Positions 3,200 to 35,854 of a stretch of DNA of 35,854 nt are shown here, piece by piece; the stretch's first letter is position 1, and the number at the start of each line of letters is the position of its first letter. This stretch comes from Desulfuromonadaceae bacterium (GTDB taxonomy: Bacteria > Desulfobacterota > Desulfuromonadia > Geobacterales > Pseudopelobacteraceae). The notes beneath the pieces are model-generated. The model did not search any database. It saw only the letters and a list, made by a program, of their open reading frames with translations, and was not told the DNA's origin. Location of the stretch: positions 1-35,854 of the forward strand of contig JAQTXD010000031.1 of the NCBI GenBank assembly GCA_028688955.1. The letters run 5' to 3'. The position numbers and the translations under genes are program-made.

Positions 3200-3205
3200 T
3201 TGTTG

Positions 3206-4057
3206 ATGCTGTTTAATCTCATTACACTTCTGCGGGTTCGTCAGTGGCTCAAAAACCTGATGCTGTTCTTTGCACCATTCCTGGGTGGTACTCTCCTCAC
3301 CAGTGTTTCTGTTTCTCAGTTGTTTCCTCCTTTTTGCGCTTTTTGCCTGGTTTCAAGTTTCACTTATATCTGCAATGATATTTTGGATAAGAAGAATGAC
3401 CTCCATCATCCGGATAAGTGTACCAGAGTGATTGCTTCCGGCAAGATATCCATATCGATGGCACTGGTCTTTGCGGCTGTTCTGCTCATCATCAGTTTGT
3501 TGATAGCATGGAACATATCCTACACGTTTCTCGTTATTATTATGGCATATGTTACACTGTCGTTCGCATATAGTGCAAAGCTGAAAGATATCATTCTGCT
3601 CGATATATTTTGCATCTCTACCGGATTTCTGCTGCGTCTTCAAGCGGGCGGTGAAGCATTCAGCGTGCCTATTTCGGAATGGCTGTTTACGAGTGTATTC
3701 CTTCTTTCGGTCTTTCTAAGCGCGGGTAAGCGTCTAGCGGAAAAACTGCATCTTGGTGAAGATGCTCACTATCATCGTAAGGCATTGACAGCTTATCCAA
3801 TGAAATTTTTGGAATGGACCATGTATATGACCGGCAGTTCGGTTCTGGTAACCTATGCCTTGTATGCCATTTCCCGACATTCATTACTTTTACTCTGGTC
3901 TGTGCCGCTTTGCTGTTTTGGTCTATTGCGTTACCTGTTTAGAATCCGGTCCGGTAAAAGCGGGGACCCTACAGAATCTCTGGTCAGGGATATGCCGCTT
4001 ATGGTCATTGGCGTAATGTGGATTAGCCTTGTCGGGTGGGGAATTTATGGAAGGTAG
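3206..4057 (+). CDS. UbiA-family polyprenyl-phosphate phosphoribosyltransferase-like protein
   Basis: This is a polytopic membrane protein of 283 residues with about eight hydrophobic segments. The first UbiA Asp motif reads NDILDKKNDLHHPDK and is followed by TRVIASGKIS. That NDxxDxxxDxxHPxKxxRxIASG pattern is characteristic of decaprenyl-phosphate phosphoribosyltransferases (the Rv3806c type) rather than of quinone or haem prenyltransferases. The expected reaction is transfer of phosphoribose from PRPP to a polyprenyl phosphate, giving a lipid-linked pentose precursor. I chose the ATG at 3206; a TTG at 3200 directly after the previous stop is in frame. Its place between an ABC transporter and glycosyltransferases supports a glycan role. 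No DprE-type epimerase is seen nearby, so the final sugar may be ribose. Confidence 0.75.
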   Translation: MLFNLITLLRVRQWLKNLMLFFAPFLGGTLLTSVSVSQLFPPFCAFCLVSSFTYICNDILDKKNDLHHPDKCTRVIASGKISISMALVFAAVLLIISLLIAWNISYTFLVIIMAYVTLSFAYSAKLKDIILLDIFCISTGFLLRLQAGGEAFSVPISEWLFTSVFLLSVFLSAGKRLAEKLHLGEDAHYHRKALTAYPMKFLEWTMYMTGSSVLVTYALYAISRHSLLLLWSVPLCCFGLLRYLFRIRSGKSGDPTESLVRDMPLMVIGVMWISLVGWGIYGR

Positions 4058-4074
4058 GCAGGGGGCGCCGATAC

Positions 4075-4977
4075 GTGCGTGAACATATTCTAAAGACATG
4101 TTATCGCATGACTCCGTTTGATCTGCGTGGCGATTGCAATGTTCCTGACGCCGCAGGCAAGATCACGCTTTCGTGCATCATTAATTTCTATGGGAGGATC
4201 AATCTCCTGGAAGGAATACTCTATTCTCTGCAGGAACAAAATTTACCTAACCACCAGTTTGAAGTTATTCTTGTTGAGGATAGGGGGGGGACGGAAGCCG
4301 GTCTGGCTGCGGCGGAGCGTTTTTCCGCAAAACTCCCGATTCGCTATCTGCCACTGGATAAAAACTACGGCCACATGGGATATTCACGAAACGTTGGACT
4401 CCAGCATTCCCTCGGCGAATATATCCTCTTCCTTGATGATGACACCGTGCTGCTGCAGGCTGATTTCCTCTCAAAACTGATTACAAATTTTGAGATGCAT
4501 CCGGAAACTGATGCACTGGTCCCGCGCGGGAACGCCTCATTTTCACTGATTGCCGGTCATTACAATTTTCACGACCCGTACTTTATGACCAGCCGCTGTA
4601 CAGCGTATAGACGAGCGGTGCTGACACGTCTGAGTGGTTTTATGAGTAATTTTATCGGTCAGGAAGATGTGGAGTTTGTGGTCAGATTTACCATAGCAGG
4701 GGGGAAAAGCCGGATTGTCTCTGAACTGAACTATTTTCATCCACCATTACTCGTACAAAATTTCCGTAAACCGATGGCGGTCGGATATTCATTCGCGAAG
4801 CTGAAATCGAAGTATTCGACTATACTATGGCTGCTGGTCGTTCTTAATTGTGCCCGTCATGCGCCGTTGTATCTGCTTCCAACCAGAAGATACAGGGAAA
4901 TGGGCAGATTCGGGATCGGATTTCTGGCGGGAGTTATCGTTTCTCTATTCAAAAAAAGCGGGTTCAGGTATTCCTGA
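4075..4977 (+). CDS. Family 2 glycosyltransferase
   Basis: The N-terminal two-thirds is a GT-A fold: an opening strand SCIINFYGRINLLEGIL, a nucleotide-binding acidic turn VEDRGG, a conserved GYSRNVGL helix, and the metal-binding LDDDT. The likely acceptor or base region QEDVEF follows. A hydrophobic C-terminal part (WLLVVLNCARHAPLYLL and FGIGFLAGVIVSLF) suggests membrane association. The frame is open back to a GTG at 4036, but the GTG at 4075 is preceded by a purine-rich AGGCAGGGGG site at good distance, so I place the start there, 17 bases after the UbiA gene. A run of eight G at 4283-4290 lies in the coding region. The sugar donor and acceptor cannot be told. Confidence 0.8.
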   Translation: MREHILKTCYRMTPFDLRGDCNVPDAAGKITLSCIINFYGRINLLEGILYSLQEQNLPNHQFEVILVEDRGGTEAGLAAAERFSAKLPIRYLPLDKNYGHMGYSRNVGLQHSLGEYILFLDDDTVLLQADFLSKLITNFEMHPETDALVPRGNASFSLIAGHYNFHDPYFMTSRCTAYRRAVLTRLSGFMSNFIGQEDVEFVVRFTIAGGKSRIVSELNYFHPPLLVQNFRKPMAVGYSFAKLKSKYSTILWLLVVLNCARHAPLYLLPTRRYREMGRFGIGFLAGVIVSLFKKSGFRYS

Positions 4978-5027
4978 CATGCACGAATTTGTGGCACTAC
5001 TGTGCACCGATTTGTGTGAGGAACGTT

Positions 5028-5801
5028 ATGTTTAATCGTCTTTATGCTTACAAAGATTTATTACTTGTGTTTATTTGGCGTGAATTCCTGATTCGCTACA
5101 AGCAGACATTCATTGGTGTTTTATGGGCAGTTCTTCAACCCGTAAGTCTCATGCTCCTTTTTACCTTTATTTTCGGCGTAGTTCTTAATACCACACAAAA
5201 AAATTACCCTTACACTCTCTTTTACTTCGCCGGAGTCTTGCCCTGGACCTTCTTTTCAGGTGCTACTAATTTTGCAGTTACCAGTCTTTCCGGAAACTTT
5301 AACCTGATAACAAAAATTTATTTCCCTCGTGAAATTATTCCTCTTTCCGGAGTTGCCATTAATTTCATTGATTATCTGATTGGCCTCGCTGTCTATTTTC
5401 TGTTACTGCTCATGTATCAAGTGCCACTAACGTGGAATTTTCTCTGGTTGATCCCGCTGCTGATTATGCTGCTGTTATATACCACTTCGGTTTCCCTGTT
5501 ACTTGCTGCACTAAATGTCTATTATCGAGATGTCAAATTGGCATCCACGTTTCTGCTGCAGTTTCTGTTCTTCGCAACGCCGGTTATTTATTCAATTGAT
5601 GCTGTAGATAATCGGTGGAAGCTACTGTTGTTTTTAAATCCCCTCACTTATATCGTAGAGAACATGCGTCGGGTAACGATTGAAGGGCGCGGGGTTATTC
5701 TCTGGCAAGTGGGAGTGGAACTGGCTGGTATCCTGATTTTATATTTTATAATTTATCGTATTTTTATCCGGATTGAGAGGGCCTTTGCCGATGTCATATG
5801 A
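5028..5801 (+). CDS. Polysaccharide ABC export permease (Wzm/RfbA/TagG type)
   Basis: The protein is 257 residues, the usual size for Wzm-type permeases. It begins MFNRLYAYKDLLLVFIWREF followed by a short RYKQTFIGVLWAVLQP segment, a hallmark of the family. Six hydrophobic segments follow, with the typical loop LNVYYRDVKLA and an ITKIYFPREIIPL segment. The ATG at 5028 has a GAGGA site six bases upstream; the frame is open further upstream but those 60 residues do not resemble the family. It overlaps the ATPase gene by 11 bases. The pair should flip and export an undecaprenyl-linked O-antigen or similar glycan chain across the inner membrane. Confidence 0.88.
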   Translation: MFNRLYAYKDLLLVFIWREFLIRYKQTFIGVLWAVLQPVSLMLLFTFIFGVVLNTTQKNYPYTLFYFAGVLPWTFFSGATNFAVTSLSGNFNLITKIYFPREIIPLSGVAINFIDYLIGLAVYFLLLLMYQVPLTWNFLWLIPLLIMLLLYTTSVSLLLAALNVYYRDVKLASTFLLQFLFFATPVIYSIDAVDNRWKLLLFLNPLTYIVENMRRVTIEGRGVILWQVGVELAGILILYFIIYRIFIRIERAFADVI

Positions 5802-6510
5802 TCCGGTAATAAGTTTCACGGATATCTGGAAAAAGTATTCCATGCAGCAGGTGTTGAACAACTCGTTACGTGATGAACTGGTGTCTGTGATTACCGGAAA
5901 AAAATGTCGTGATGAATTGGCTGCTGGAGAGTTCTGGGCGTTGAAGGATGTCACTTTTAACGTCAAGAAAGGCGAGTGTGTTGGGTTGTACGGCCCCAAT
6001 GGGTCCGGGAAGAGTACGATTTTGAAGCTCATTTCAAACGTAACCTATCCTACCAAAGGTTCAATTAATGTGCTGGGTAGAGTTGCTCCACTCATCGAGC
6101 TCGGTGCGGGGATGCACCCGGATTTGACCGGCATCGAGAATATTTATATGAATGGGACAATTCTTGGTTTGAAAATTCGGGAACTGAAACGGCTGATTCC
6201 TGACATTATTGAATTCTCAGGCCTTGATGATTTTATTAATGCCCCGGTGAAGAAATATTCATCAGGAATGTATCTACGGCTGGCTTTTTCTATAGCAGTT
6301 CATAGCCCTGCAAATATATTTCTTTTTGATGAGGTCCTTGCGGTGGGGGATGAAGATTTTCAGTTGAAATGCTATGACCGATTAGCAACTATCCGCTCAA
6401 ATAACGGCACCATAGTTGTTGTCAGCCACGACCTTGCCACACTTCGTCGAATATGTGATAAAACCGTGAATCTGCAGCACGGCGTGATTGTGTCTGGTGA
6501 GGCTCTATGA
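5791..6510 (+). CDS. Polysaccharide ABC export ATPase (Wzt/TagH type, no C-terminal domain)
   Basis: The 239-residue protein carries Walker A GPNGSGKST, the signature YSSGMYLRLAFS, Walker B IFLFDEVLAVGD and the switch histidine in VVSHDLATL. The early insert with VISFTDIWKKYSM and the LKDVTFNVKKGECVGLYG strand are typical of polysaccharide exporters. I place the start at the ATG at 5791, behind GAGAGGG, rather than at the upstream TTG at 5773. The protein stops right after the ATPase domain. It therefore lacks the carbohydrate-binding C-terminal domain of longer Wzt proteins that recognise a capped chain end. Export here is likely coupled to synthesis rather than to recognition of a terminal modification. 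Confidence 0.88.
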   Translation: MSYDPVISFTDIWKKYSMQQVLNNSLRDELVSVITGKKCRDELAAGEFWALKDVTFNVKKGECVGLYGPNGSGKSTILKLISNVTYPTKGSINVLGRVAPLIELGAGMHPDLTGIENIYMNGTILGLKIRELKRLIPDIIEFSGLDDFINAPVKKYSSGMYLRLAFSIAVHSPANIFLFDEVLAVGDEDFQLKCYDRLATIRSNNGTIVVVSHDLATLRRICDKTVNLQHGVIVSGEAL

Positions 6511-6514
6511 AAGC

Positions 6515-6535
6515 ATGACCACCAGTGGTGGTCAT
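6515..6535 (+). repeat. Perfect 9-bp inverted repeat after the export ATPase gene
   Basis: ATGACCACC at 6515-6523 pairs perfectly with 6527-6535 across a three-base AGT spacer. It starts five bases after the wzt-like stop and is followed by TAAAA rather than a T tract, so it is not a standard intrinsic terminator. It could be a transcript-end stabilising hairpin, or an operator when read as DNA. Confidence 0.5.
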
Positions 6536-6622
6536 TAAAAAGCAGCTTCAAAAAGTTCACTACATTCATCCACCTATTGGTGGGTAATGCACTACTGGCT
6601 ACTATTTCAGAAGGCGGATATA

Positions 6623-7669
6623 ATGGTTTCTTCAATTTTATGGAACAACGAACTTCTTGAACCGGTGATAATAACTTATAACAGGTCCCAATGCCTAGAG
6701 CGCACTATACAGGCATTTCAGGATGCCGGTCTGGGGTCGATGAAGCTGCATGTCCTTGATAATGCTTCAACCGATTCAACTAGATCCGTTGTTGAAAAGT
6801 TCCAGAAAAACTGGCCGCTACTTACCTATCATCGCAATACTTTCAACATCGGCGGCAATGCCAACATTCTACGGGCTGTAGAACTATCGCAGTCTGAATA
6901 TTTCTGGGTAATCGGTGACGATGATTTGTGGCTGTTTGGAGGAATTGCCGAGTTGCAGGAAAAGCTGGTGCAACGGGAAGCGGATATAATACGGCTTGGT
7001 TGGTTGGTCGATGACAAGAGCCGAGGTAAGATCGTTGAGTCTCTTGAATTGGCATGGTCAGAAAAATTTTTTTTTGCCAGTCTGAGTATGATATCGTCCG
7101 TTATCGTTAGACGCGAAATATTTGTTCGTAACCTCCCGTATTGCTATATGAACATTGCCGACTCTTATCCGCAGATGGTACCCTTCTACAAGACTATTAC
7201 CAGCAGTTCCCTGAAATGCTATACCTTAATTAATGATGTTGTAACACATACCCCAGACCCACAACCTGGTTATTTCATGGGTGATTTGGAGTGGCATTCT
7301 GCATATATACGCGGGACTCGCTTTCTGGATAATAGTGATCTCAGAAGCAAAGCTGTTCGTGAGCTGATGGATTATACCGAAAAGGTTAATAACCGTCGTT
7401 TCAATATGTTTAGCCATTTTAAAAACTTCTTTTATCTTGCCATGAAGTCGAAGGCGTATGGTTTTGATCAGATGCCGTACCTGCTGAACATGCTTTGTTA
7501 TGCTCAAGGGTATAGGGGTATTATCGGCTTACTGGTAATTGTATACCTGAGTATGCCGACTTGGCTTGTAAGGTTTCTAGTAATGGGACTGCGCAGATAT
7601 TGTAAGCTCACTACAGATGTAGAGGAGGTAAGAAGATTTTTTCTAGAAGGTCGCAGTCGTCGTCTATAG
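6623..7669 (+). CDS. Family 2 glycosyltransferase, first of three related copies
   Basis: This 348-residue protein starts with the GT-A strand EPVIITYNRSQCLERTI, followed by LHVLDNASTDST, a FNIGGNANILRAVE helix (residues 74-87) and the metal-binding GDDD at 98-101. The second half is poorly conserved, with a hydrophobic helix near the C-terminus (GIIGLLVIVYLSMPTWLVRFLV) that may bind the membrane. The ATG at 6623 lies six bases after AAGGCGG; an ATG at 6587 is in frame but has no ribosome site. The shared NIGGNAN motif and layout link it to the two genes downstream. It probably adds one sugar to the glycan exported by the adjacent ABC transporter. Confidence 0.8.
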   Translation: MVSSILWNNELLEPVIITYNRSQCLERTIQAFQDAGLGSMKLHVLDNASTDSTRSVVEKFQKNWPLLTYHRNTFNIGGNANILRAVELSQSEYFWVIGDDDLWLFGGIAELQEKLVQREADIIRLGWLVDDKSRGKIVESLELAWSEKFFFASLSMISSVIVRREIFVRNLPYCYMNIADSYPQMVPFYKTITSSSLKCYTLINDVVTHTPDPQPGYFMGDLEWHSAYIRGTRFLDNSDLRSKAVRELMDYTEKVNNRRFNMFSHFKNFFYLAMKSKAYGFDQMPYLLNMLCYAQGYRGIIGLLVIVYLSMPTWLVRFLVMGLRRYCKLTTDVEEVRRFFLEGRSRRL

Positions 7670-7733
7670 TCTCTTCGGTGCCAGATTGAACTAATCCGAA
7701 TAACAGTTCACAACAACATGAAAGTTCTGGAAA

Positions 7734-8729
7734 ATGACAGTCACACTCGATATTTTCATAATAACATGGAATCGTGCCAGTTTCCTTTCACGAACCCTTG
7801 AAAAACTGGCATCCAGTCCTTTTGCACAGTGCCGACTGACAATTCTCGATAACTGCTCTTCTGATGATACTGCAAGTGTGTGTGCATGCTGGATGCAATC
7901 CTTCCCTGATTCCAGAGTGATACACAGGGCAAAGAATATTGGCGGGAATGCAAATTATCTTCGTGCGGTGGAAGAGGCAACTGCGGATTATACCTGGGTT
8001 CTCTGCGATGACGATGATCTCGATTTTACTGCAGCAGCTGAATGTCTTACTGCGCTTTCCAAGAGTGAGTATGACATTGTATGCGTAGGTTCTCCACATT
8101 TGTATGAGTGGGAATACGGCCTGTCCTGCAATGTTCACCAATTGATTGAACGTGGGGCACGATACTATAGGAATCTAGGATTTTTTCCGGCAACCATCTT
8201 TAGAACAGTTCTCTTTGACAGCAACTGCCTGTTAAAGGGGTATTCGAATATCAATAATTTTTATCCACAGATTGAATTTGTCAACAAGTCTGTGCGGGAA
8301 AATTTCCGAGTCTATACTTGTAGTATACCGATCGTGTTGCGAAACCGGGATAACTCGTCGGGGTTTTCAGGTTTAAACTGGTTTGCTTCATGGGTTAACA
8401 CCTGTCAGACCATAACTGACTCACGACTCCGTTTTCATGTTATCAATCAGGTTTTAGAGGAAGAGGGTGGGAGGGTGAAAATGATATTTATCTACCTTTG
8501 TGGTGAAAAACTGATGAGTGTCTACAGTTGGCAGACTTATAAACGATATTTGACTGATATTTTTTTGGGTATAGACACTCTCAATCGCTTGATATTCTGC
8601 TTGGCTCTTCCCTGTACTTTAATGCCGAGGTGGGCCCTTAAACTGCTGCGTCGGATAAGATGGTACCTGAGTGACGAAATTCCTCCCCTCATTGATTTTG
8701 ACCGCCGCGATCTTCATTCGAGTGAGTAA
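7734..8729 (+). CDS. Family 2 glycosyltransferase, second of three related copies
   Basis: The protein has 331 residues and a GT-A core: DIFIITWNRASFLSRTL, LTILDNCSSDDTASVC, KNIGGNANYLRAVE (67-80) and the acidic CDDDD at 91-95. It is clearly closest to the next gene, with which it shares long stretches including ITDSR/IQDPS after WV.(T/A)CQT, NSSGF, and matching lengths. The C-terminus has a hydrophobic and basic segment typical of peripheral membrane glycosyltransferases. No strong ribosome site precedes the ATG at 7734. It stops two bases before the next start, so the two are probably translated together. The likely role is successive or alternative addition of a sugar in a surface glycan; the specificity is unknown. 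Confidence 0.8.
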   Translation: MTVTLDIFIITWNRASFLSRTLEKLASSPFAQCRLTILDNCSSDDTASVCACWMQSFPDSRVIHRAKNIGGNANYLRAVEEATADYTWVLCDDDDLDFTAAAECLTALSKSEYDIVCVGSPHLYEWEYGLSCNVHQLIERGARYYRNLGFFPATIFRTVLFDSNCLLKGYSNINNFYPQIEFVNKSVRENFRVYTCSIPIVLRNRDNSSGFSGLNWFASWVNTCQTITDSRLRFHVINQVLEEEGGRVKMIFIYLCGEKLMSVYSWQTYKRYLTDIFLGIDTLNRLIFCLALPCTLMPRWALKLLRRIRWYLSDEIPPLIDFDRRDLHSSE

Positions 8730-8731
8730 CG

Positions 8732-9736
8732 ATGCCCAGAGAAATTCTTTCTATTTTTGTAATTACATACAACAGATGTAATTTTCTAGAAAATACTCTG
8801 AATCAATTGGCAAAATCTCCTTTCTCGGCGTGCTCAATAACTATTCTTGATAACTGCTCAACTGACAGCACTCCAGCGGTGTGTTCACTTTTCCGCGACC
8901 TGTTTCCGGTATATTCAGTTATCAGGCATGCAATAAACATCGGCGGGAATGCCAACTACCTCCGTGCTGTGGAGATGTCTCGTACTCCATATACATGGGT
9001 GGTCTGTGACGATGATGACTTTGACTTCTCGGATTGCACTGACGTTATGGAGGCTCTTGAATGTGGCAGTTTTGATTTTATATATCTTGGATCACCTTCT
9101 CAACAGGAATGGGAGAGGGGACTCGTCACCACGGCACATACCATTATCGCAAGGGGTTCGAAATACTACAGTGGCCTAACTTATATGCCCTCTTTAATTT
9201 TTCGTACATCATGCTTTGACTCGGATTGTATGGTAAAAGCCTATCGGCTGATCAATTGTCTTTATCCGCATTTTGAACTGCTTAACAGATCCATAAAAGA
9301 CGATTTTAGAATCTATGTCGCAAAACGGCTTATTTTTATCCGGAATGAGTTGAACTCATCGGGGTTTTATCCACTTTTTTGGTATGCTTCATGGGTTACT
9401 GCTTGCCAAACAATACAAGACCCCTCTATTCGCTATAGAACCATAGATCAGGCAACTGAACAAAAGGGATACTACAAATCACTGGGGTTCTGGATTGCAC
9501 TGGAAAAAAGTCAGCGGAACAGATTTTTTTATAAGCGGATCATCGATATTCTTAGTGGTTACAACTGGCGTCAGCGGATTGCCTTCTTGCCGATGCTGCC
9601 AGTAGTCATAATTCCACTGCCGAAATCGCTGCTTGGAGTGCTTAGGCGCATTGTATACCGTATGAGCGGCCATGCTGGCGAACTCCCTTCTATCGAGATT
9701 GAGGGACGTGACAAGGGTTATGATGATTACTTATGA
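8732..9736 (+). CDS. Family 2 glycosyltransferase, third of three related copies
   Basis: The protein has 334 residues and the same plan as its upstream neighbour: SIFVITYNRCNFLENTL, ITILDNCSTDSTPAVC, INIGGNANYLRAVE (68-81) and CDDDD at 92-96. The similarity continues through the second half (SSGFYPLFWYASWVTACQT), so the two arose by tandem duplication and then diverged. The ATG at 8732 comes two bases after the previous stop. A hydrophobic stretch near residues 285-305 (IAFLPMLPVVIIPL) suggests membrane contact. Its stop codon lies inside the left arm of an inverted repeat (9728-9740 with 9787-9799). The substrate is unknown. Confidence 0.8.
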   Translation: MPREILSIFVITYNRCNFLENTLNQLAKSPFSACSITILDNCSTDSTPAVCSLFRDLFPVYSVIRHAINIGGNANYLRAVEMSRTPYTWVVCDDDDFDFSDCTDVMEALECGSFDFIYLGSPSQQEWERGLVTTAHTIIARGSKYYSGLTYMPSLIFRTSCFDSDCMVKAYRLINCLYPHFELLNRSIKDDFRIYVAKRLIFIRNELNSSGFYPLFWYASWVTACQTIQDPSIRYRTIDQATEQKGYYKSLGFWIALEKSQRNRFFYKRIIDILSGYNWRQRIAFLPMLPVVIIPLPKSLLGVLRRIVYRMSGHAGELPSIEIEGRDKGYDDYL

Positions 9737-9799
9737 ATTCAGGTCTGAAATGTCTGCAACAGGTATTATTGTCTCCGTAGAATTATGAGTTCATAAGTA
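9728..9799 (+). repeat. Inverted repeat spanning the end of the third glycosyltransferase gene
   Basis: TACTTATGAATTC at 9728-9740 is complementary to GAGTTCATAAGTA at 9787-9799 except for one position that could form a G-T pair in RNA. The arms are 46 bases apart and the left one contains the stop codon. No T tract follows, so a terminator is unlikely; an operator or an RNA structure is possible. Confidence 0.4.
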
Positions 9800-9861
9800 T
9801 TCCTCATCGTATGATTAACTTGCTGCTGAATGTGACACGGAAATCAGAAAGGTTCGTCTTC

Positions 9862-11217
9862 TTGAAATTTCTCATCCTTGGTGCCGGCCCCTGTGGGCTG
9901 GGTGCCGCCTATCATCTCAATAAATTGGGACATGCGGACTGGCAGGTTTTTGAACGTAACGGCCATGTTGGTGGTCTGTCTGCATCGTTCAAGGATACAA
10001 AGGGTTTCACTTGGGACATTGGCGGTCACGTTCTCTTCTCCCACTATGATAGTTTTGACAAGGCAGTTGCTGAAGCTTTGGGAGATCAGTATTTCGAACA
10101 CCAGCGGGAAAGCTGGATCCGTATCCTGCAGCGTTGGGTTCCGTACCCGTTCCAGAATAATGTCAGGTATCTTCCAGATGAGGCGCTCCATGAATGTGTC
10201 ATCGGTCTGCGGGAACTTTCTGGTCCTTCTGGCGGATTGACCAATTTCAAAGAGTGGATGGATGCAATTTTTGGTTACGGTATTGTTAAATATTTTATGG
10301 AACCATATAACAGCAAGGTGTGGGGCGTTCCGTTAGAATCTATGAGCAAAGAGTGGATTGCCGAGCGGGTGAGCGTGATAGATCTTGCCCGTATTGAACG
10401 AAACATTGCAGAGGAGCGGGATGATCTAGGCTGGGGCCCCAATAACGTATTCAGATTCCCAAAATATGGTGGTACGGGTGCTATTTACGAAGGCATAGCT
10501 CAACCGCTTTGTGAAAAAATACACCTGCAGCATGAGATGATGGATATCGATCTGGATCAAAAGATGGTGACTTTTTCCAATGGCAGGGTTGAGCGCTATG
10601 ACGTGTTGATCAATACCTCGCCGCTTGACCTGTTGGTATCAAAATGCCAAAAAATTCCCGAGTCGGTATCTGGTGCTGCTAGAAATCTTGTCCATAACAG
10701 CGGTCTGATTGCCGGTTTTGGGTTTAAAGGAAAGCGTGATGACTCCAGGTGCTGGATGTATTTCCCGGAAAACAATGCTCCGTTCTACCGGGTGACCAAT
10801 TTTCATAATTACTCGCGCTTTAATGTGCCGGGCGGTGAGGTCGATCGATATTTCTCGCTGATGTGCGAGACGACTTATTCATCTCATAAGCCGCAAGACA
10901 AGGCGAAAATAATTGATTCATCACTTCAGGGATTGCTCTCCAGTAATATAGTTAATAAAGAAAATGTTGATTATATTGCCAGTCGTTACCTCATCGATGT
11001 TCCCTATTCCTATCCGGTGCCGACGCTGGGGCGCGATCAGGCGCTTGCGATTATTCAGCCGTACCTGGAATCAAAGTTCATCTTTTCCCGGGGACGCTTT
11101 GGTGCCTGGAAATACGAAGTCGGCAACATGGACCATTCCTTTATGCAGGGGGTGGAGGTTGTTGACCGCCTGCTGAATGGAACAGGAGAGTGTACTCTGA
11201 ACGGTGTGGCTGGATGA
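9862..11217 (+). CDS. FAD-dependent amine-oxidase-like oxidoreductase
   Basis: The protein begins with a Rossmann dinucleotide fold (FLILGAGPCGLGAAYHLN), followed by VFERNGHVGGLSASF and DIGGHVLFSHY. This is the FAD-binding pattern of the amine oxidase/protoporphyrinogen oxidase/UDP-galactopyranose mutase superfamily. The C-terminal GAWKYEVGNMDHSFMQGVEVVDRLL closes the FAD fold. I prefer the TTG at 9862, which is preceded by AGAAAGG and gives a typical start; an ATG at 9811 would add 17 residues before the fold. It is 451 residues from the TTG. The gene overlaps the next by four bases (ATGA). Its setting suggests action on a nucleotide sugar or lipid-linked sugar. The exact reaction is not evident, and it lacks close likeness to true UDP-galactopyranose mutases. 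Confidence 0.7.
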   Translation: MKFLILGAGPCGLGAAYHLNKLGHADWQVFERNGHVGGLSASFKDTKGFTWDIGGHVLFSHYDSFDKAVAEALGDQYFEHQRESWIRILQRWVPYPFQNNVRYLPDEALHECVIGLRELSGPSGGLTNFKEWMDAIFGYGIVKYFMEPYNSKVWGVPLESMSKEWIAERVSVIDLARIERNIAEERDDLGWGPNNVFRFPKYGGTGAIYEGIAQPLCEKIHLQHEMMDIDLDQKMVTFSNGRVERYDVLINTSPLDLLVSKCQKIPESVSGAARNLVHNSGLIAGFGFKGKRDDSRCWMYFPENNAPFYRVTNFHNYSRFNVPGGEVDRYFSLMCETTYSSHKPQDKAKIIDSSLQGLLSSNIVNKENVDYIASRYLIDVPYSYPVPTLGRDQALAIIQPYLESKFIFSRGRFGAWKYEVGNMDHSFMQGVEVVDRLLNGTGECTLNGVAG

Positions 11218-12371
11218 ATATTCAGTTGATGAAGCTGTTTGATGCCGTAATCGGCCGGATAGTAGCATCCGTTTTCCCCGCACCACTGCAGATAACACCT
11301 CCCTGCACAGTAACTTCGCTTCTCCTCATCCGTCCCGGTGGCATCGGTGATGCGGTGCTGCTTGCACCTGCAATTAATTCTCTAAAAAAGACTTTTCCGT
11401 CTGCTCGTGTCTCGATTCTTGCCGAGAAACGCAATGCCGGAATTTTTTGCCTGATTCCCGGAGTGGACAACCTGCTTTGTTACGATAGCCCGGGCGAGTT
11501 GTTTCAGGCATTGCTGGGCTCATATGATGTTGTGATCGATACCGAACAATGGCACCGCCTTTCGGCGGTCGTGGCGCGAATGGTATCGGCGCCGGTTAAG
11601 ATAGGTTTCTGTTCTAATGAACGTCGTCGGATGTTCACGCATACCGTTCCCTATTCACATGATGATTATGAAACGCTCAGTTTTGTCCGACTTCTGAAGC
11701 CGTTGGGCATTGAAGGAGCGAAGATGAATGGCGGAGTCCCCTTTCTATTTGTTCCGCATGCTGCAACCGACACGGTTGCCGGTCTGCTGGAGCCAATTCA
11801 GGGAGATCGTTTCGTGACCATTTTTCCCGGAGCAAGTATAAGGGAGCGTCGCTGGGGTGCTGAACGTTTTCGCAGGGTGGCTGAAATCCTTGCTGGATTC
11901 GGTATCAAAACGGTTGTTGTCGGTGGAAAAGTGGACCGTCGACAGGGAAAGGTGATAGCCGGAAACGGGGTGGGACTTGATCTTACTGGTGTACTTACGT
12001 TACCCGAGACTGCTGCGGTTATTCAAAAAAGCGCGTTGTTGTTGAGTGGCGATTCCGGTGTGCTGCATATTGCCACAGGATTGGGAATACCGACGGTATC
12101 TCTCTTCGGGTCGGGAAGAGCAAAGAAATGGGCTCCGAAGGGAGACGACCATCTTGTGATCAACAAAAATCTGCCCTGTTCGCCCTGTACAACTTATGGT
12201 TCGACACCATCATGTTCAACCGGTGTTCAGTGTATGCGGGATATTGACGTTGATGACGTTGTGAACGCAGTTACCATGCTGTTAACCACTGTGGGTACAA
12301 TGCCTTTTCGATGCTGCAACAGCGAATTGATCAAAACAGGAGGAATGTCAAATTCCACTCCTGCAGTATAA
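11214..12371 (+). CDS. Family 9 glycosyltransferase (heptosyltransferase-like)
   Basis: The 385-residue protein has the GT-B family 9 hallmarks: LLLIRPGGIGDAVLLAPAI at residues 36-54, a central VTIFPGASIRERRWGAERF donor-site motif, and SGDSGVLHIATGLGIPTVSLFG in the C-terminal domain. A Cys-rich end (PCSPCTTYGSTPSC) is common in heptosyltransferases. I place the start at the ATG at 11214, which overlaps the stop of the FAD gene (ATGA); the frame runs back to a GTG at 11190. Such enzymes add heptose or related sugars to the lipopolysaccharide core at the inner face of the inner membrane. This is the last gene of the polysaccharide block. Confidence 0.85.
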   Translation: MNIQLMKLFDAVIGRIVASVFPAPLQITPPCTVTSLLLIRPGGIGDAVLLAPAINSLKKTFPSARVSILAEKRNAGIFCLIPGVDNLLCYDSPGELFQALLGSYDVVIDTEQWHRLSAVVARMVSAPVKIGFCSNERRRMFTHTVPYSHDDYETLSFVRLLKPLGIEGAKMNGGVPFLFVPHAATDTVAGLLEPIQGDRFVTIFPGASIRERRWGAERFRRVAEILAGFGIKTVVVGGKVDRRQGKVIAGNGVGLDLTGVLTLPETAAVIQKSALLLSGDSGVLHIATGLGIPTVSLFGSGRAKKWAPKGDDHLVINKNLPCSPCTTYGSTPSCSTGVQCMRDIDVDDVVNAVTMLLTTVGTMPFRCCNSELIKTGGMSNSTPAV

Positions 12372-30509: not shown

Positions 30510-31481
30510 ATGACGTCGGTTTCAATCGTTATTCCGGTCTACAATGCTGAAAAAACAATTGCCGATCTTTGCCGGACTCTCATGGATCTGCTTGCTGCCG
30601 ACTACCAGCTTGAAATTGTGCTGATAAACGACAGCAGCAATGATGGGTCTGATGCGGTCTGCAAATTTCTTCAGAGCGAATATCCTCAGACTATCGTTTA
30701 CGCCCGTCTGTCGCGTAATTTCAGTGAACACAATGCGGTTATGGCCGGATTGAACCAGGTGCGTGGCGACTATGTCGTCATCATGGATGATGACTTTCAG
30801 AACCCTCCCGAAGAAGTTTCGCGTTTGCTTACCGAAATACAGAAGGGGTTTGACGTAGTCTACTGCCAGTATCCGGTAAAAAATGACAGTTTTTTCCGTA
30901 ACCTGGGCAGCTATCTCAACGGCAGTATGGCACGGGTTGTCCTGAATAAACCGGCCAATCTCTATCTGTCCAGTTTCAAAGCGATAAACCGTTTTCTCGT
31001 CAACGAGATTATTACAGATAAGAATCCCCGTCCCTACATTGATGCCATTATCCTGCGCATAACCCGTTCAATCGGCACGGTTGAGGTTCGCCATGATCAG
31101 CGCCGGGCGGGTCGCTCCGGTTATACATTCAAAAAACTGACCGCACTGTGGGGTGACACGATTGTCAGCTATTCACTGATTCCGTTGCGCATAGTAGCGC
31201 TGCTCGGCCTGATTCTGACACTGATTGGCTTATATTCCGTTTCTATAGTTATATTTCAAAATTTACATCCGTACTTCAATGATCCGAGTGAACTGGAAGA
31301 GTTGACATCAGTAACAATTTTTTTCAGAGGATTTCAGCTGTTTGCGACCGGAATTGTCGGAGAATATGTCGGACGTATCTATCTGAAACTGAATCAGGAA
31401 CCGCAGTATATTATCAGGGAGATGCAATCAGCTCTCCCGAACAGAAGATCGGGGGGGGGTGATAGACGTGGGACTAAATGA
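30510..31481 (+). CDS. Polyprenyl-phosphate glycosyltransferase (GtrB/DPM1-like)
   Basis: This family 2 enzyme of 323 residues has SVSIVIPVYNAEKTI, VLINDSSNDGS, the metal-binding MDDDFQNPPEE (Asp93-95) and the RSGYTFKKLTALW segment. Two C-terminal transmembrane helices follow (IVALLGLILTLIGLYSVSIVIF and FFRGFQLFATGIVGEYVGRIYL). This is the GtrB/ArnC/DPM1 layout, in which a sugar is moved from a nucleotide onto undecaprenyl phosphate at the inner membrane. The ATG at 30510 has AAGGAG five bases upstream; an ATG at 30483 does not. The 3' end carries a run of nine G and overlaps the dehydratase gene. It probably puts the deoxysugar made by the next genes, or another sugar, onto the lipid carrier. 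Confidence 0.85.
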   Translation: MTSVSIVIPVYNAEKTIADLCRTLMDLLAADYQLEIVLINDSSNDGSDAVCKFLQSEYPQTIVYARLSRNFSEHNAVMAGLNQVRGDYVVIMDDDFQNPPEEVSRLLTEIQKGFDVVYCQYPVKNDSFFRNLGSYLNGSMARVVLNKPANLYLSSFKAINRFLVNEIITDKNPRPYIDAIILRITRSIGTVEVRHDQRRAGRSGYTFKKLTALWGDTIVSYSLIPLRIVALLGLILTLIGLYSVSIVIFQNLHPYFNDPSELEELTSVTIFFRGFQLFATGIVGEYVGRIYLKLNQEPQYIIREMQSALPNRRSGGGDRRGTK

Positions 31482-32883
31482 TGTGACACAGACTGGCAGT
31501 ATCGCCATTTCTCCTGATGATGCTGCCGCAGCGCTTGCTTCATACCACAGTGTAACCGCACTTCATAATGATGCTTTCGTAGATCAGTGGGTCTGTAATT
31601 CCCGGAAAAGAGCTTCGCTTCACAGTATGCTGGTTGCGCTTGACGAAATCGGAGGGTGGCTGCGCGATAGTGTGAATGGCAATATCAATCACGAAACGGG
31701 GCGGTTTTTCAGCATTATCGGAGTTCATGTCCGGCACCGGGTTGATCGGGATGAACTGGAGTGGGACCAACCGATTATTGAACAGCCTGAGACCGGCATT
31801 CTTGGGATTCTGGCCAGACAGATCAACGGAGTGCTGCATTTCTGCCTGCAGGCCAAGGAAGAGCCTGGCAATATCGGCAATATTCAGCTTTCTCCAACGG
31901 TTCAGGCGACGTACAGCAACTATACCGGTGCTCATGGCGGAGCCACGCCGCTGTTCCTTGATCTGTTCTGCGGATCTGAACGGTCACGGATATTGTTCGC
32001 CCGCCTGCAGACAGAAGATGGCGGGCGCTTCCTGTACAAATCCAACCGCAACATGATTGTCGTAGTAGAGGACGATTACCCGCAGGAGCTGCCGGAGGGG
32101 TTCATCTGGCTGACCATGCGGCAGATAATGCGACTGATGAATCAGGATAATCTGGTCAATGCCTGCACCCGCAGCATTCTTTCATGTCTGGCTTTTGCTG
32201 CCGAAAAACGGCAGGTGCAGAGTCCCTGTCATGAACTGGAACATGGTCTCCGCACCACACTGCAGTGGCTTGATGACCGCCGGGCTGCCAACCATATGCT
32301 GACGCGTCGGATCGGACTGAATGTGCTGCAGGAGTGGTGCATTGATGCCAAAGGCTTTTTTTCACATCGGGAAAAACGATTCTTCAGAATTGTCGGTTTG
32401 CAGGTCTCTGCCGGTACGAGGGAAGTCCGCTCCTGGGGGCAGCCGATTATCGAAAATCCGGCCGCCGGAATCATCGGGCTGCTCATAAAGAATGGAACAC
32501 ATGGCATTGAACTGCTGATGCAGGCCAAGGCGGAGGTAGGAAACCGAAGTACTGTGCAGCTTGGCCCAACGGTTCAGTTTACCCAGGGAAACTATGAGGG
32601 GAGCCGAAAACTCAAAAAGCCATTCCTGTATGACGAATTTCTGGAGCCGGAACGTTTTCAGCTGCTTCATGAAAGCCGTCAGACCGAGGAAGGAGCGCGT
32701 TTTTACCGTGAATATCATCAGCATCGCATCCTGATGCTTCCGGACGGGGCTTTTTTGGAACATCCCGAAGATTACGCCTGGCTGCCTCTGGAACAGGTCA
32801 TGTTTCTGGTCCATCTGGGTGAGCAGGTCAACTCCTGTGCCCGGAGTATACTGACCTGTCTGCTCTGCCGGGTAGGTTCATGA
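31459..32883 (+). CDS. NDP-hexose 2,3-dehydratase
   Basis: The 474-residue protein is two homologous halves in tandem. The first has DQPIIEQPETGILGIL, QAKEEPGN (near residue 130) and LSPTVQATYSNYTG. The second repeats it as GQPIIENPAAGIIGLL, QAKAEVGN (near 354) and LGPTVQFTQGNYEG. This duplicated Nudix-like plan is that of dTDP-4-keto-6-deoxyglucose 2,3-dehydratases (TylX3, EvaA, SpnO). They remove the C2 hydroxyl to give a 3,4-diketo-2,6-dideoxy sugar. Starts at GTG 31459 or 31468 are possible; the latter is better spaced from the G run. It overlaps the glycosyltransferase gene and the next gene (ATGA). The family is mostly known from antibiotic pathways, so it is unusual here. Confidence 0.85.
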   Translation: MIDVGLNDVTQTGSIAISPDDAAAALASYHSVTALHNDAFVDQWVCNSRKRASLHSMLVALDEIGGWLRDSVNGNINHETGRFFSIIGVHVRHRVDRDELEWDQPIIEQPETGILGILARQINGVLHFCLQAKEEPGNIGNIQLSPTVQATYSNYTGAHGGATPLFLDLFCGSERSRILFARLQTEDGGRFLYKSNRNMIVVVEDDYPQELPEGFIWLTMRQIMRLMNQDNLVNACTRSILSCLAFAAEKRQVQSPCHELEHGLRTTLQWLDDRRAANHMLTRRIGLNVLQEWCIDAKGFFSHREKRFFRIVGLQVSAGTREVRSWGQPIIENPAAGIIGLLIKNGTHGIELLMQAKAEVGNRSTVQLGPTVQFTQGNYEGSRKLKKPFLYDEFLEPERFQLLHESRQTEEGARFYREYHQHRILMLPDGAFLEHPEDYAWLPLEQVMFLVHLGEQVNSCARSILTCLLCRVGS

Positions 32884-33842
32884 TACGGGTCGGAATTCTG
32901 GGATGCTCCGACATTGCCCGGCGTAAATTCATTCCCGCACTACGCAACAGCAGGCAGGCCCGTCTTGTTGCCGTGGCAGGCAGACAGCGGGAGAGGGCAG
33001 CAGTGCTGGCAGCTGATCTGTCGGCTAATGCCATGACATACGAAGAACTTGTCAGCACCCCCGCGGTTGATCTGCTCTATATCTCACTTCCCAATCATCT
33101 TCACGAAGAGTGGAGTATTCGTGCTCTTGAGCAGGGCAAGCATGTCATCTGCGAAAAACCGCTCGGGCTCTGCCTGGCAGCGGTCATGCGCATGCTGGAA
33201 GTTGCTGACAGACATGGCCGGCTTCTGTTTGAGAACGTCATGTACCTGCAGCACCCGCAACACATGCTTGTGAAGGATCTGCTCTCGTCAGGGCGCATCG
33301 GACGTACGCTCTCCCTGCGGAGTGAATTTGCCTTTCCGGGACCGCCGCCGGGAGATTTTCGGCTCGATCCGGCCATGGGCGGCGGGGCTTACAATGACAT
33401 GAACCGTTACCCGCTCAGTGCGGCGCTCTATTTTCTTGATGGAAAGGAGCACCGCTTCTGCCACGGCAGTGAAGAGATACGGGATGGTCTCACCATATCG
33501 TTCCAGGCTGATTCCAGTACGGATTCCGGTGAGAGCTTCTCCTTTATGACGGCATTCGGTCTGCCGTACCGATCGTTTTACACGATCAGCGGAGAAGTCG
33601 GGGAGATAACCGTAGAGCGGGCCTTCACTACCCCGGCGGAGATGGAGAACAGAATTAGGGTAACAGCACATGGCAGGGATGAGTCATTCAACGCTCCAGC
33701 GAGCGATCATTTCCTGAATACCATTGAGCATGTCTGCGGTTTGATACAGTGCGGTGAGTGGAGAGCGGAACATCTGCAGGCACGAAGGCTGGCTGCACTG
33801 GCCGACTTGTTTCATGACAACTGCATGCGGAGGTACGAGTAA
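32880..33842 (+). CDS. Gfo/Idh/MocA oxidoreductase, likely NDP-sugar 3-ketoreductase
   Basis: The 320-residue protein has an N-terminal Rossmann fold (RVGILGCSDIARRKFIPAL) and the family's catalytic EKPLGL (Lys93) after a YISLPNHLHEEW strand. The C-terminal sheet domain contains GGGAYNDMNRYPLSAALYF. In deoxysugar pathways the 2,3-dehydratase product is unstable and is trapped by a partner 3-ketoreductase of this family (TylC1, SpnN). Direct adjacency with four-base overlap to the dehydratase gene supports that role. The stereochemistry at C3 cannot be predicted from sequence alone. The start ATG at 32880 overlaps the preceding stop. Confidence 0.83.
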   Translation: MIRVGILGCSDIARRKFIPALRNSRQARLVAVAGRQRERAAVLAADLSANAMTYEELVSTPAVDLLYISLPNHLHEEWSIRALEQGKHVICEKPLGLCLAAVMRMLEVADRHGRLLFENVMYLQHPQHMLVKDLLSSGRIGRTLSLRSEFAFPGPPPGDFRLDPAMGGGAYNDMNRYPLSAALYFLDGKEHRFCHGSEEIRDGLTISFQADSSTDSGESFSFMTAFGLPYRSFYTISGEVGEITVERAFTTPAEMENRIRVTAHGRDESFNAPASDHFLNTIEHVCGLIQCGEWRAEHLQARRLAALADLFHDNCMRRYE

Positions 33843-33843
33843 C

Positions 33844-34962
33844 ATGACGATCAGCATACCCAGGATCCGCTATTGGAGCTATCTGGAAGAGTATTCAGCA
33901 CATCGGGATGACTATCTGCGAGCTGTTGACAGCGTCTTCTCGTCCGGACGACTGATACTGGGGCAACAGGTTGCTACCTTTGAAGATCGTTTTGCAGCCT
34001 ATTGCGGCGTGCCCTGTGCCGTCGGGGTGAATTCCTGTACCGACGCTCTGTTTTTGGCCTTGAAAGCACTGGATATCGGCCCGGGTGACGAGGTCATTAC
34101 GGTTGCAAACACCGCAGTGCCGACCGTGGCCGCTATTCGTGCCACCGGTGCCAAACCTGCGTTCGTGGATGTGGAGGAAGATACGTTCCTGATGGATGTG
34201 ACACAGCTTGACAGAGCCGTAACGCGGCGTACGCGTTGCATCCTGCCGGTTCATCTGTTCGGCCAGATGGTAGATATGCTGCCGCTACGGGAGTATGCCA
34301 ACCGATACAGCCTCTCGGTGGTTGAGGATTGTGCCCAGGCCTGCGGCGCCACTTACAACGGCTGCCGCGCCGGCTCTCTCGGAGACGCCGGAGCGTTCTC
34401 ATTTTATCCTACAAAAGTGTTGGGGACGTTTGGCGATGGCGGTGCCGTGACAACCTCCCGGCCGGAGCTTGCCCTGCGGCTGAAACGGCTGCGCATGTAC
34501 GGCATGGAGAACGCCTATTATGCCGAGGAGGAAGGGTATAATACCCGTCTGGACGAAGTGCAGGCAGCTATTCTCAACGTGAAACTGCCCGGACTTGACC
34601 CGTCGGTTGAACGTCGCCGGCGCATAGCAGAAATTTATGATGACGGCCTGGCAGGGATTGACGGACTGTCCCTCCCGGCTGTCAGAGAGGGGCGCAGCCA
34701 TCAACGCTATCTCTATACAATCAGGACTGCGCGCCGTGATGAATTGCAGCGCTACCTGGCAGGAGAGGGGATTGAGACCAAGGTGAACTATCCAGATCCG
34801 ATCCATCTGATGCGCGGCTACCGTTTTCTGGGGTATGCACCCGGAAGTCTTCCGGTGACGGAGCGCCTGGCAGCAACAATCCTGTCGCTCCCCATGTATC
34901 CGGAATTGCCGAATGAGCAGGCAGCCGAAGTGGTAGCAGCCGTCAGACGGTTTTACGCATGA
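33844..34962 (+). CDS. DegT/DnrJ/EryC1 sugar aminotransferase
   Basis: The 372-residue PLP enzyme has the family pattern: SGRLILGQQVATFEDRFAAY, GVNSCTDALFLALKAL, VVEDCAQACGATYNG and the PLP Lys191 in FSFYPTKVLGTFGDGG. The RLDEVQAAILNVKL segment and a late His-rich region are also typical. I start at the ATG at 33844, which has GGAGG ten bases upstream and gives the usual N-terminus (IPRIRYWSYLEEY). An amino group would be placed at the C3 or C4 keto position of the deoxysugar. With a 3-ketoreductase next door, C4 amination giving a 4-amino-2,4,6-trideoxyhexose is the simplest reading. It overlaps the methyltransferase gene by four bases. Confidence 0.88.
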   Translation: MTISIPRIRYWSYLEEYSAHRDDYLRAVDSVFSSGRLILGQQVATFEDRFAAYCGVPCAVGVNSCTDALFLALKALDIGPGDEVITVANTAVPTVAAIRATGAKPAFVDVEEDTFLMDVTQLDRAVTRRTRCILPVHLFGQMVDMLPLREYANRYSLSVVEDCAQACGATYNGCRAGSLGDAGAFSFYPTKVLGTFGDGGAVTTSRPELALRLKRLRMYGMENAYYAEEEGYNTRLDEVQAAILNVKLPGLDPSVERRRRIAEIYDDGLAGIDGLSLPAVREGRSHQRYLYTIRTARRDELQRYLAGEGIETKVNYPDPIHLMRGYRFLGYAPGSLPVTERLAATILSLPMYPELPNEQAAEVVAAVRRFYA

Positions 34963-35738
34963 ATCTGGTTGAATACACCCGCATGTACGAAGCTGAAGAG
35001 CACCACTGGTGGTATGTGGGGCTTCACCGGTTGATTATGGCAGCTGTTCAGCGGGAGTCACACCGGCTGGGGCGATTGCTGACCATATTTGACGCCGGGT
35101 GCGGCACGGGGCGGCTCTGCCAGCTGCTAGCGGCAGAGGGGCACTGCGTAAGCGGCTGCGACGTCTCAGAGGAAGCGCTGCGCTTCTGCCGGCTACGCGG
35201 CATCAACACCACTTTCCCTGCAGACCTGAATTCCATCGAGCTCGAACCGGAATCATATGATGTTGTTACTTCGATTGACGTACTCTATCACCGGGGTGTT
35301 TCAGATGATGTCGACGTCATGCGGCGACTGCAGCAGGGTCTCAAACCGGGGGGCCTGTTGATCCTGAACCTGGTTGCCCACGAGTTTCTGCGCAGTACAC
35401 ATGACATCGCAGTGCATACACGAGAGCGCTATACACGGCAGATGCTCTGCGAACGACTGCAATCTGCCGGATTCGACGTCGAAATGACAACCTATCGTGT
35501 CAGCCTGCTGTTTCCTTTCATAGCAGCATACCGTCTGTTGTCTCGCCTTGCAGTGCCCCGAATGACTGATCCTGATAACGTTGATTCAGATGTCAGTGTG
35601 CCGAATCAGGTGATCAACTCCCTGCTGCTGAAGGTCGTTGAACTGGAAAATCTGTTTCTTGCAGTATCATCGCTTCCTTTTGGAAGCTCAGTATTTGTGG
35701 TGGCCCGAAAGAGCCGAAACAATCTGGTGATGGCGTGA
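34959..35738 (+). CDS. SAM-dependent methyltransferase
   Basis: The 259-residue class I methyltransferase has the SAM motif I FDAGCGTGRLCQLLA (residues 44-58), an acidic motif near VTSIDVLYHRGV, and LKPGGLLILNLVAHEF. The N-terminal MYEAEEHHWWYVGLHR (residues 9-24) is common in methyltransferases next to lipid-carrier glycosyltransferases. A hydrophobic segment (LLFPFIAAYRLLSRLAV) near residue 185 may contact the membrane. It may N- or O-methylate the amino-deoxysugar or a lipid-linked form. The start ATG overlaps the aminotransferase stop. GC content is high here, about 75 percent over 35101-35160. Confidence 0.8.
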   Translation: MNLVEYTRMYEAEEHHWWYVGLHRLIMAAVQRESHRLGRLLTIFDAGCGTGRLCQLLAAEGHCVSGCDVSEEALRFCRLRGINTTFPADLNSIELEPESYDVVTSIDVLYHRGVSDDVDVMRRLQQGLKPGGLLILNLVAHEFLRSTHDIAVHTRERYTRQMLCERLQSAGFDVEMTTYRVSLLFPFIAAYRLLSRLAVPRMTDPDNVDSDVSVPNQVINSLLLKVVELENLFLAVSSLPFGSSVFVVARKSRNNLVMA

Positions 35739-35761
35739 AGTTACCCAGGAAAAAGATTCAC

Positions 35762-35854
35762 ATGCCTGCTCGCTCCTCCAGTGTAAGTGACAGTGAACAA
35801 CTCCCACAAACTGCCCCCGTCGGTTCAAGTTTATGGCAGGACCCTTTTGTTCAT
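35762..35854 (+). CDS. Start of a gene of unknown function, cut by the window end
   Basis: A frame is open to the end of the window from an ATG at 35762, preceded by AGGAAAAAG at good spacing. A GTG at 35735 overlapping the methyltransferase stop (GTGA) is an alternative start. Only about 31 residues are visible; they are polar and rich in Ser, Pro and Gln, and contain no diagnostic motif. By position it may be a further glycosyltransferase or membrane protein of the same operon, but nothing in the visible part shows this. Confidence 0.5.
   Translation, partial: MPARSSSVSDSEQLPQTAPVGSSLWQDPFVH

Follow-up and report, generated by a model that had tools for sequence, protein, structure and literature searches.

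A gene cassette in Geobacterales that joins antibiotic-type aminodeoxysugar genes to a lipid-phosphate type glycosyltransferase: a possible variant of three-component glycosylation

EvaA and EvaB belong to the vancosamine/epivancosamine pathway, in which a 3-amino-2,3,6-trideoxysugar is synthesised and amination at C3 by EvaB follows the action of the 2,3-dehydratase EvaA. The 2,3-dehydratases named in the available part of one account stem from antibiotic pathways (PMC8987622). The general scheme of three-component glycosylation, as given in an excerpt from another account, combines a lipid-phosphate sugar synthase with a flippase and a GT-C enzyme (PMC11127046). Here we describe a cassette of five genes, with the beginning of a sixth, at the end of contig JAQTXD010000031.1 of a Desulfuromonadaceae bacterium (assembly GCA_028688955.1), where genes for a 2,3-dehydratase and for an EvaB-like aminotransferase stand together with those for a glycosyltransferase of lipid-phosphate type and a GT-C-like membrane protein. 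The window, that is the whole stretch of DNA analysed, is an entire contig (C84) of 35854 bases, so that no sequence can be read beyond 35854 on it; it belongs to a genome bin of 212 contigs and 3.95 Mb, about 99% complete and with a contamination of 5.9%. The favoured reading, to which a probability of about 0.52 is attached, is that the cassette represents a variant of three-component glycosylation in which a 3-amino-2,3,6-trideoxyhexose would be linked to a lipid phosphate, from which a GT-C-like enzyme would pass it on outside the cytoplasm. A preliminary description of this DNA had suggested a 4-amino-2,4,6-trideoxyhexose; it appears to be right in outline, with a 3-amino trideoxysugar more likely than a 4-amino one. 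If the reading is true, it would extend the donor sugars of three-component glycosylation by a new kind, tie antibiotic sugar chemistry to cell-surface sugar chemistry, and reveal a modification of the envelope that had escaped notice in relatives of Geobacter, organisms that have been studied for extracellular electron transfer.

The cassette resembles the EvaA-EvaB pathway in that its 2,3-dehydratase keeps the catalytic pair of EvaA and its aminotransferase is of C3 type, close to those of actinobacterial clusters that mostly contain a 2,3-dehydratase. It differs in having neither an epimerase nor a 4-ketoreductase of the short-chain dehydrogenase/reductase (SDR) kind among its genes, a MocA-type reductase being present in 19 of 28 cassettes, and in having a lipid-phosphate type enzyme instead of an antibiotic glycosyltransferase, together with a methyltransferase of unassigned kind. 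The ArnBCDT system for 4-amino-4-deoxyarabinose (Ara4N) likewise combines an aminotransferase, a family 2 glycosyltransferase (GT2; that of the cassette is ArnC-like, with 32% identity to E. coli ArnC) and a membrane partner, but ArnB acts at C4 and its signatures are different, the five cassette proteins match no ArnA or ArnD model, and the membrane protein with tetratricopeptide repeats (TPRs) encoded beside the cassette has no significant match to ArnT. PgfM1 and PgfM2, of the PgfS-PgfM1-PgfE-PgfM2 protein glycosylation operon of Streptococcus mutans, are membrane proteins. PgfS provides the second-best NCBIfam model for the cassette GT2, but the score is far below the PgfS cut-off, and no aminodeoxysugar genes are named in the available part of the description of that operon (PMC5856776). 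With the GtrA/GtrB/Gtr and pentofuranose systems, so far as the excerpt covers them (PMC11127046), the cassette shares a lipid-phosphate sugar synthase and a membrane GT-C-like enzyme, whereas it has aminosugar genes of its own, a TPR domain on the GT-C candidate and no linked flippase (the GtrA family being the one searched for). The eukaryotic TMTC O-mannosyltransferases also have a multi-transmembrane (multi-TM) part followed by TPRs, and their motifs M1, M2 and M4, in the portion of the source available (PMC7801869), resemble the DD after the first TM segment, the RP and the KExxxT that are present in 7/7 TPR-type sequences; however, a TMTC Pfam match is absent in 8/8 TPR-type sequences and, of the seven TMTC motifs, the others are partial or absent.

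The dehydratase carries two tandem PF03559 stretches in one protein (455.7 bits against a cut-off of 25), and its sole match in the PDB at E 0.001 was EvaA (4j7g, 312 bits). Change of the EvaA residues E139 and E190 abolishes activity, according to the part of the source cited above (PMC8987622), and glutamates equivalent to both are kept in 30/30 rows from 29 genomes, including the different cluster of genome G013 considered below. Its identification as a 2,3-dehydratase is borne out by this sole solved relative and the conserved catalytic pair. The preliminary description had proposed a look for rmlA and rmlB elsewhere in the genome, and both are there above curated cut-offs on contigs other than the window (RmlA, 441 bits against 361; RmlB, 477 bits against 365); therefore the expected substrate of the dehydratase can be made. 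Two of the three findings that it had listed as counting against it could be checked here, namely a genome without a dTDP-glucose 4,6-dehydratase and a dehydratase of non-sugar kind, and neither was encountered.

PF03559 was detected in 29 of the 98 genomes searched, the source genome included, and when the surroundings of each were inspected, in the window itself and in stretches of up to 20 kb from the relatives, the cassette was seen in 28, loci L034 and L051 being from one genome that is counted once in all genome counts. The GT2, dehydratase and aminotransferase genes are present in all 28 (one aminotransferase is cut by a contig end), the methyltransferase in 26 (G097 gave no match and in G023 the position is off the contig) and the reductase in 19. 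These genomes span three families of one order and include Geomonas and Citrifermentans species. In a sample of the class, a dehydratase of this kind (E 1e-50) was found in 27/195 genomes, all assigned to the same order, family or genus, the number of genomes from outside the order among the 195 not being given. In a sample of the phylum, PF03559 occurred in 7/297 genomes, two of them the source genome and a member of the same genus; in the remaining five the dehydratases are distant (33-36% identity), each adjoined by a reductase. In one of these five, L097, the genes run in the order dehydratase, reductase, aminotransferase and methyltransferase, and its methyltransferase is 38% identical to that of the window. 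No description of the cassette was found among the matches listed in searches of an open-access library, outside which most subscription papers fall. G013, of the same genus as the source, has no cassette and instead a different 2,3-dehydratase cluster (L047, G013:C92:3000-15377), whose aminotransferase is DesI-like and of C4 type and which also encodes a Wzx-like flippase and a phosphonopyruvate decarboxylase. In G097 (L030) the GT2, dehydratase, aminotransferase and TPR protein genes occur without reductase and methyltransferase, and this set is perhaps a minimal cassette.

The top named sugar enzymes among the PDB matches of the aminotransferase were 2oga (320 bits), labelled Transaminase in its record and taken by us to be DesV, and QdtB (300 bits); for DesV, WlaRG and the C4 enzymes, name and specificity are likewise those in general use or given in the records. 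QdtB aminates C3, as stated in the part of its description available (PMC2943079). The sequences of DesV, QdtB and WlaRG read FSFYP[GA]KNLGxxGD[GA]G and NSRLDE, and all 20 aminotransferase rows (19 of the 28 cassettes and L097) carry the catalytic-Lys signature FSFYPTKxLGxxGD[GA]G with N[ST]RLDE. In the common form FSFYPxKxLGxxGD[GA]G and RLDE, these signatures, which were derived within this analysis from the same C3 references, are present in 3/3 C3 references and 6/6 actinobacterial homologues and in 0/5 C4 references (two ArnB, perosamine synthetase, WecE and PseC), which show EGG and lack RLDE. PDB chains 7b0d and 7n63 (PTK or PGK), which are not among the named C3 references, also carry both. 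The cassette enzymes have the catalytic Lys and both signatures of the DesV/QdtB/WlaRG group. No alignment column splits the aminotransferases of cassettes with a reductase from those without (14 vs 6 rows, the 14 including L097), a uniformity that points to a single reaction in all of them.

In an unrooted tree the cassette, actinobacterial and C3 rows were parted from the C4 rows (95/94), and the cassette and actinobacterial rows grouped together (98/98). Two rows were left out, PseC_L090, which was wrongly framed and is also absent from the signature alignment, and WecE, which had a long branch; an earlier, unsettled tree that included PseC_L090 placed both sets of references, C3 and C4, to the same side of the cassette rows, an arrangement that is possible if the tree is unrooted. 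Since the tree is unrooted, the C4 branches are long and the C3 references stand apart, it speaks for separation from C4 enzymes more than for membership of the C3 group. The closest plasmid homologues opened, among the matches listed, are actinobacterial (52-57% identity). Six regions were chosen among those matches (25 of 969 plasmid records, with incomplete gene tables), those of S. akebiae and S. albidoflavus being the same kind of cluster. A 2,3-dehydratase is present in 5/6, and in 4/6 it occurs without an annotated Gfo/Idh/MocA reductase, these four also holding a 3,5-epimerase and a NAD-dependent epimerase/dehydratase; the S. atratus region has both dehydratase and MocA-type reductase, and the stretch from Pseudonocardia has no dehydratase. 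A DNA search of E. coli genomes for a named aminotransferase relative gave no match.

The closest solved relative of the reductase is KijD10 (3rbv, 164 bits; the next different molecule scored 107), and the Lys and Tyr matching the KijD10 pair, whose catalytic role and residue numbers we take as given, are kept in 20/20 reductase rows from 19 genomes (the L047 reductase scored below the bit threshold of the script and is outside these rows). The claim of a MocA-type ketoreductase is upheld by both observations. A search elsewhere in the nine genomes whose cassettes lack a reductase gave no close match, the best having 31% identity over 187 residues (E 1e-14). By kinship the enzyme is a C3 ketoreductase, and C3 may or may not be the carbon that it reduces in this pathway. 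The methyltransferase has UbiG-like proteins as its best PDB matches (40 bits), and none of its 41 matches (E 0.01) bears the name of a recognised sugar N- or C-methyltransferase, solved examples of which we presume to be DesVI/TylM1 and TcaB9; other kinds of sugar methyltransferase exist. It is from the family that methylation of the sugar is suggested.

A link to a polyprenyl-phosphate type glycosyltransferase had been proposed, and holds for every cassette genome (28/28), the DDD..Q motif of the GT2 being kept in 29/29 aligned rows from 28 genomes. The enzyme scores 177.2 bits with the NCBIfam ArnC model (cut-off 529), 149 bits with PgfS (cut-off 500) and 157 bits with an ArnC-named PDB chain, and judged by these values it is ArnC-like, not ArnC. 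The sixth gene, missed in the preliminary description, starts at a GTG that overlaps the methyltransferase stop and occupies the last 120 bases of the contig. Its start is homologous to a 670-residue open reading frame (ORF) 3' of the methyltransferase in the closest relative, L034, and contig C82, of the same genome as the window, opens inside a homologue of that protein at residue 119 of 652, C82:1-1605 matching L034 residues 119-650 through to the end with 67% identity; C84 and C82 probably adjoin, with about 80 residues unseen between them. In three homologues a simple hydropathy scan counted 9, 6 and 8 hydrophobic segments, respectively, and the Asp-Asp after the first TM segment is invariant, as are RP and the KExxxT stretch. 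The TPR-type protein thereby has the several TM helices and the acidic pair after TM1 that would be expected of a GT-C enzyme. A strong membrane partner is present in 21/28 cassettes, of TPR type in 15 (>500 bits) and of PMT_2 type in 6, never both; the profiles were built from 7/15 and 4/6 of these sequences respectively, which match by construction. The window is counted among the 15 through C82, and in L055 the TPR-type gene follows an intervening FtsH-like gene. The PMT_2-type gene lies between dehydratase and reductase in six relatives, in L054 as two overlapping frames. The strongest independent reason for regarding the TPR-type protein as a likely GT-C glycosyltransferase is that six relatives without it have a PMT_2 protein in their cassettes.

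The gene families, their catalytic residues, linkage and conservation and the presence of RmlA and RmlB are observed; the scheme that we build on them is inferred in each chemical step, as are the aminated carbon, the carrier and flippase, the activity of the GT-C candidate and the nature of the acceptor. RmlA and RmlB would supply dTDP-4-keto-6-deoxyglucose, which the 2,3-dehydratase would convert to a 3,4-diketo-2,6-dideoxy sugar; the aminotransferase would then aminate this at C3, as EvaB does after EvaA, to give a nucleoside diphosphate (NDP)-3-amino-2,3,6-trideoxyhexose. The reductase, where present, may finish the remaining ketone and the methyltransferase may trim the sugar. GT2 would load it onto undecaprenyl phosphate, an unlinked flippase would turn the lipid-linked sugar over, and the GT-C-like membrane protein, of TPR or PMT_2 type, would transfer it to some exported molecule, which may be a protein.

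The choice of carbon is the first point at which a different reading has to be weighed. Amination at C3 is probable given the signatures, the tree position and the nearest homologues, and these, with the absence of the reductase from 9/28 cassettes and of any column separating the two sets of aminotransferases, disfavour the preliminary proposal that the reductase acts at C3 and the aminotransferase then at C4, giving a 4-amino-2,4,6-trideoxyhexose on undecaprenyl phosphate. The analogy with SpnO/SpnN that had guided that proposal is not favoured either, the aminotransferase being of C3 type, and G013, of the same genus, keeps a C4-type DesI-like enzyme with its own dehydratase and reductase in a different cluster. 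Amination at C4 is accordingly rated unlikely, though several observations weigh against the C3 scheme. The reductase has a C3 ketoreductase as its closest solved relative, with the Lys/Tyr pair kept, so that a 4-amino product is still conceivable, and on the C3 scheme reductase and aminotransferase would therefore compete for one ketone; among its closest homologues on plasmids some stand next to a 2,3-dehydratase, a reductase is found beside the dehydratase in 5/5 distant phylum loci, and the reductase gene is retained in 19/28 cassettes. The named C3 enzymes form their own group beside the cassette rows in the unrooted tree. The weakest point of the C3 argument is that the C4 references exclude the SpnR-type (forosamine) aminotransferase, so the signatures may not be exclusive. 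The membrane steps of the three-component scheme meet objections as well. Searches of 8/8 TPR-type sequences, including the C82 piece, at E up to 10 gave almost only TPR and did not hit a Pfam model for GT-C, PMT or TMTC enzymes, and comparison with E. coli ArnT gave no significant match; the membrane-partner hits in three cassettes are weak (66-112 bits), and no partner was found in the stretches fetched for L026, L058, L063 and L050 (the last being cut). There is no flippase among the cassette genes, and the genome encodes a single protein of the GtrA family, on contig C180, GtrA being the flippase family searched.

The acceptor is the second such point. An acceptor that is lipopolysaccharide (LPS) or another envelope polysaccharide, modified as a side-chain or cap in a Gtr- or pentofuranose-like manner, rather than protein, would be compatible with C3 chemistry and is a serious possibility, if short of an even chance: three-component systems of the same logic modify O antigens, as described in the excerpt available (PMC11127046), and the opposite end of the window carries an ABC-2 type export cluster in which there are several GT2 genes. 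Set against this are the changing neighbours of the cassette in relatives and, by analogy, the C-terminal TPRs, which recall protein-directed enzymes like TMTC or PglL. The corresponding protein version, a dedicated extracytoplasmic O-glycosylation in Geobacterales in which a daunosamine- or vancosamine-like 3-amino-2,3,6-trideoxysugar, in common with antibiotic-type biosynthesis, would be placed on exported proteins by a bacterial TMTC-like transferase, is doubtful. That the genes serve to make a natural product for secretion, as such genes do in actinobacteria, is very improbable. The dehydratase and aminotransferase are indeed closest to actinobacterial genes among the plasmid matches listed, several of which lie beside polyketide or peptide synthetase genes, but a lipid-phosphate type glycosyltransferase accompanies 28/28 cassettes. 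No polyketide or peptide synthetase family was matched among the 22 upstream window proteins scanned, a subset of the upstream ORFs, and an antibiotic cluster was likewise not seen among these 22.

All five cassette genes, described beforehand as overlapping or closely spaced, are confirmed in an ORF check to overlap or adjoin on one strand (Table 1), and the gene families assigned to them stand, with Pfam profile matches far beyond chance. For GT2 the start at 30510 used in the preliminary description is preferred to the earliest ATG reported by the ORF tool (30483), because AGGAG directly precedes the ATG at 30510. The aminotransferase ORF opens at GTG 33754, but homology to relatives begins near ATG 33844, the probable start, one base past the reductase stop. 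A promoter scan 5' of GT2 gave one weak site on the opposite strand, against 0.8 expected.

Table 1. Genes of the cassette and the truncated gene that follows it in the window
Gene product	Position	Strand	Evidence and remarks
GT2 polyprenyl-phosphate glycosyltransferase (ArnC/GtrB/Dpm1 kind)	30510..31481	+	PF00535 5.2e-29; presumed to charge a lipid phosphate
NDP-hexose 2,3-dehydratase, EvaA-like tandem PF03559	31459..32883	+	PF03559 1.8e-137
Gfo/Idh/MocA sugar ketoreductase, KijD10-like	32880..33842	+	PF01408 1.2e-23; C3 by kinship, carbon here may differ
DegT/DnrJ/EryC1 sugar aminotransferase, C3 type	33844..34962	+	PF01041 4.7e-112
Class I S-adenosylmethionine (SAM) methyltransferase	34959..35738	+	PF08241 1.4e-15
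Sixth gene, first 40 codons: multi-TM protein with C-terminal TPRs, putative GT-C	35735..35854	+	cut by contig end

The guanine plus cytosine (GC) fraction is 0.53-0.58 from the dehydratase to the methyltransferase, 0.47 in GT2 and 0.43-0.49 in the four upstream genes measured; because the cassette is not distinct in GC from its left flank in two close relatives, the rise is a weak hint of import. A mobile origin was considered and set aside: phage records gave no match to the dehydratase and viral contigs none to its exact patterns. Among plasmid records 85 match the dehydratase, 83 of them actinobacterial by genus name and all with <60% identity.

Other genes near the cassette and its relatives may be mentioned. 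The export cluster of the window (2279-12371) comprises ABC-type export, UbiA-family, several GT2, amine-oxidase-like and heptosyltransferase-like genes. In L027, L029, L044, L045, L046 and L049 the cassette has a B12-binding radical SAM protein as its neighbour, and none was recognised by eye on C82, the presumed continuation of the window. Another multi-TM protein, about 504 residues long and with no Pfam match, follows the TPR protein on C82 (L094:1609-3123) and in L034 (17073-18590), and by similarity such a protein is near the TPR protein in L034 and L045. Twelve more ORFs in the source genome resemble the multi-TM part of the TPR protein (49-507 bits with its own profile) and are perhaps an expanded family of membrane glycosyltransferases; they lie on C204, C121, C8, C108, C144 and C83 (L102-L107), some side by side, and two of those on C108 are near an ORF that resembles GT2 by eye.

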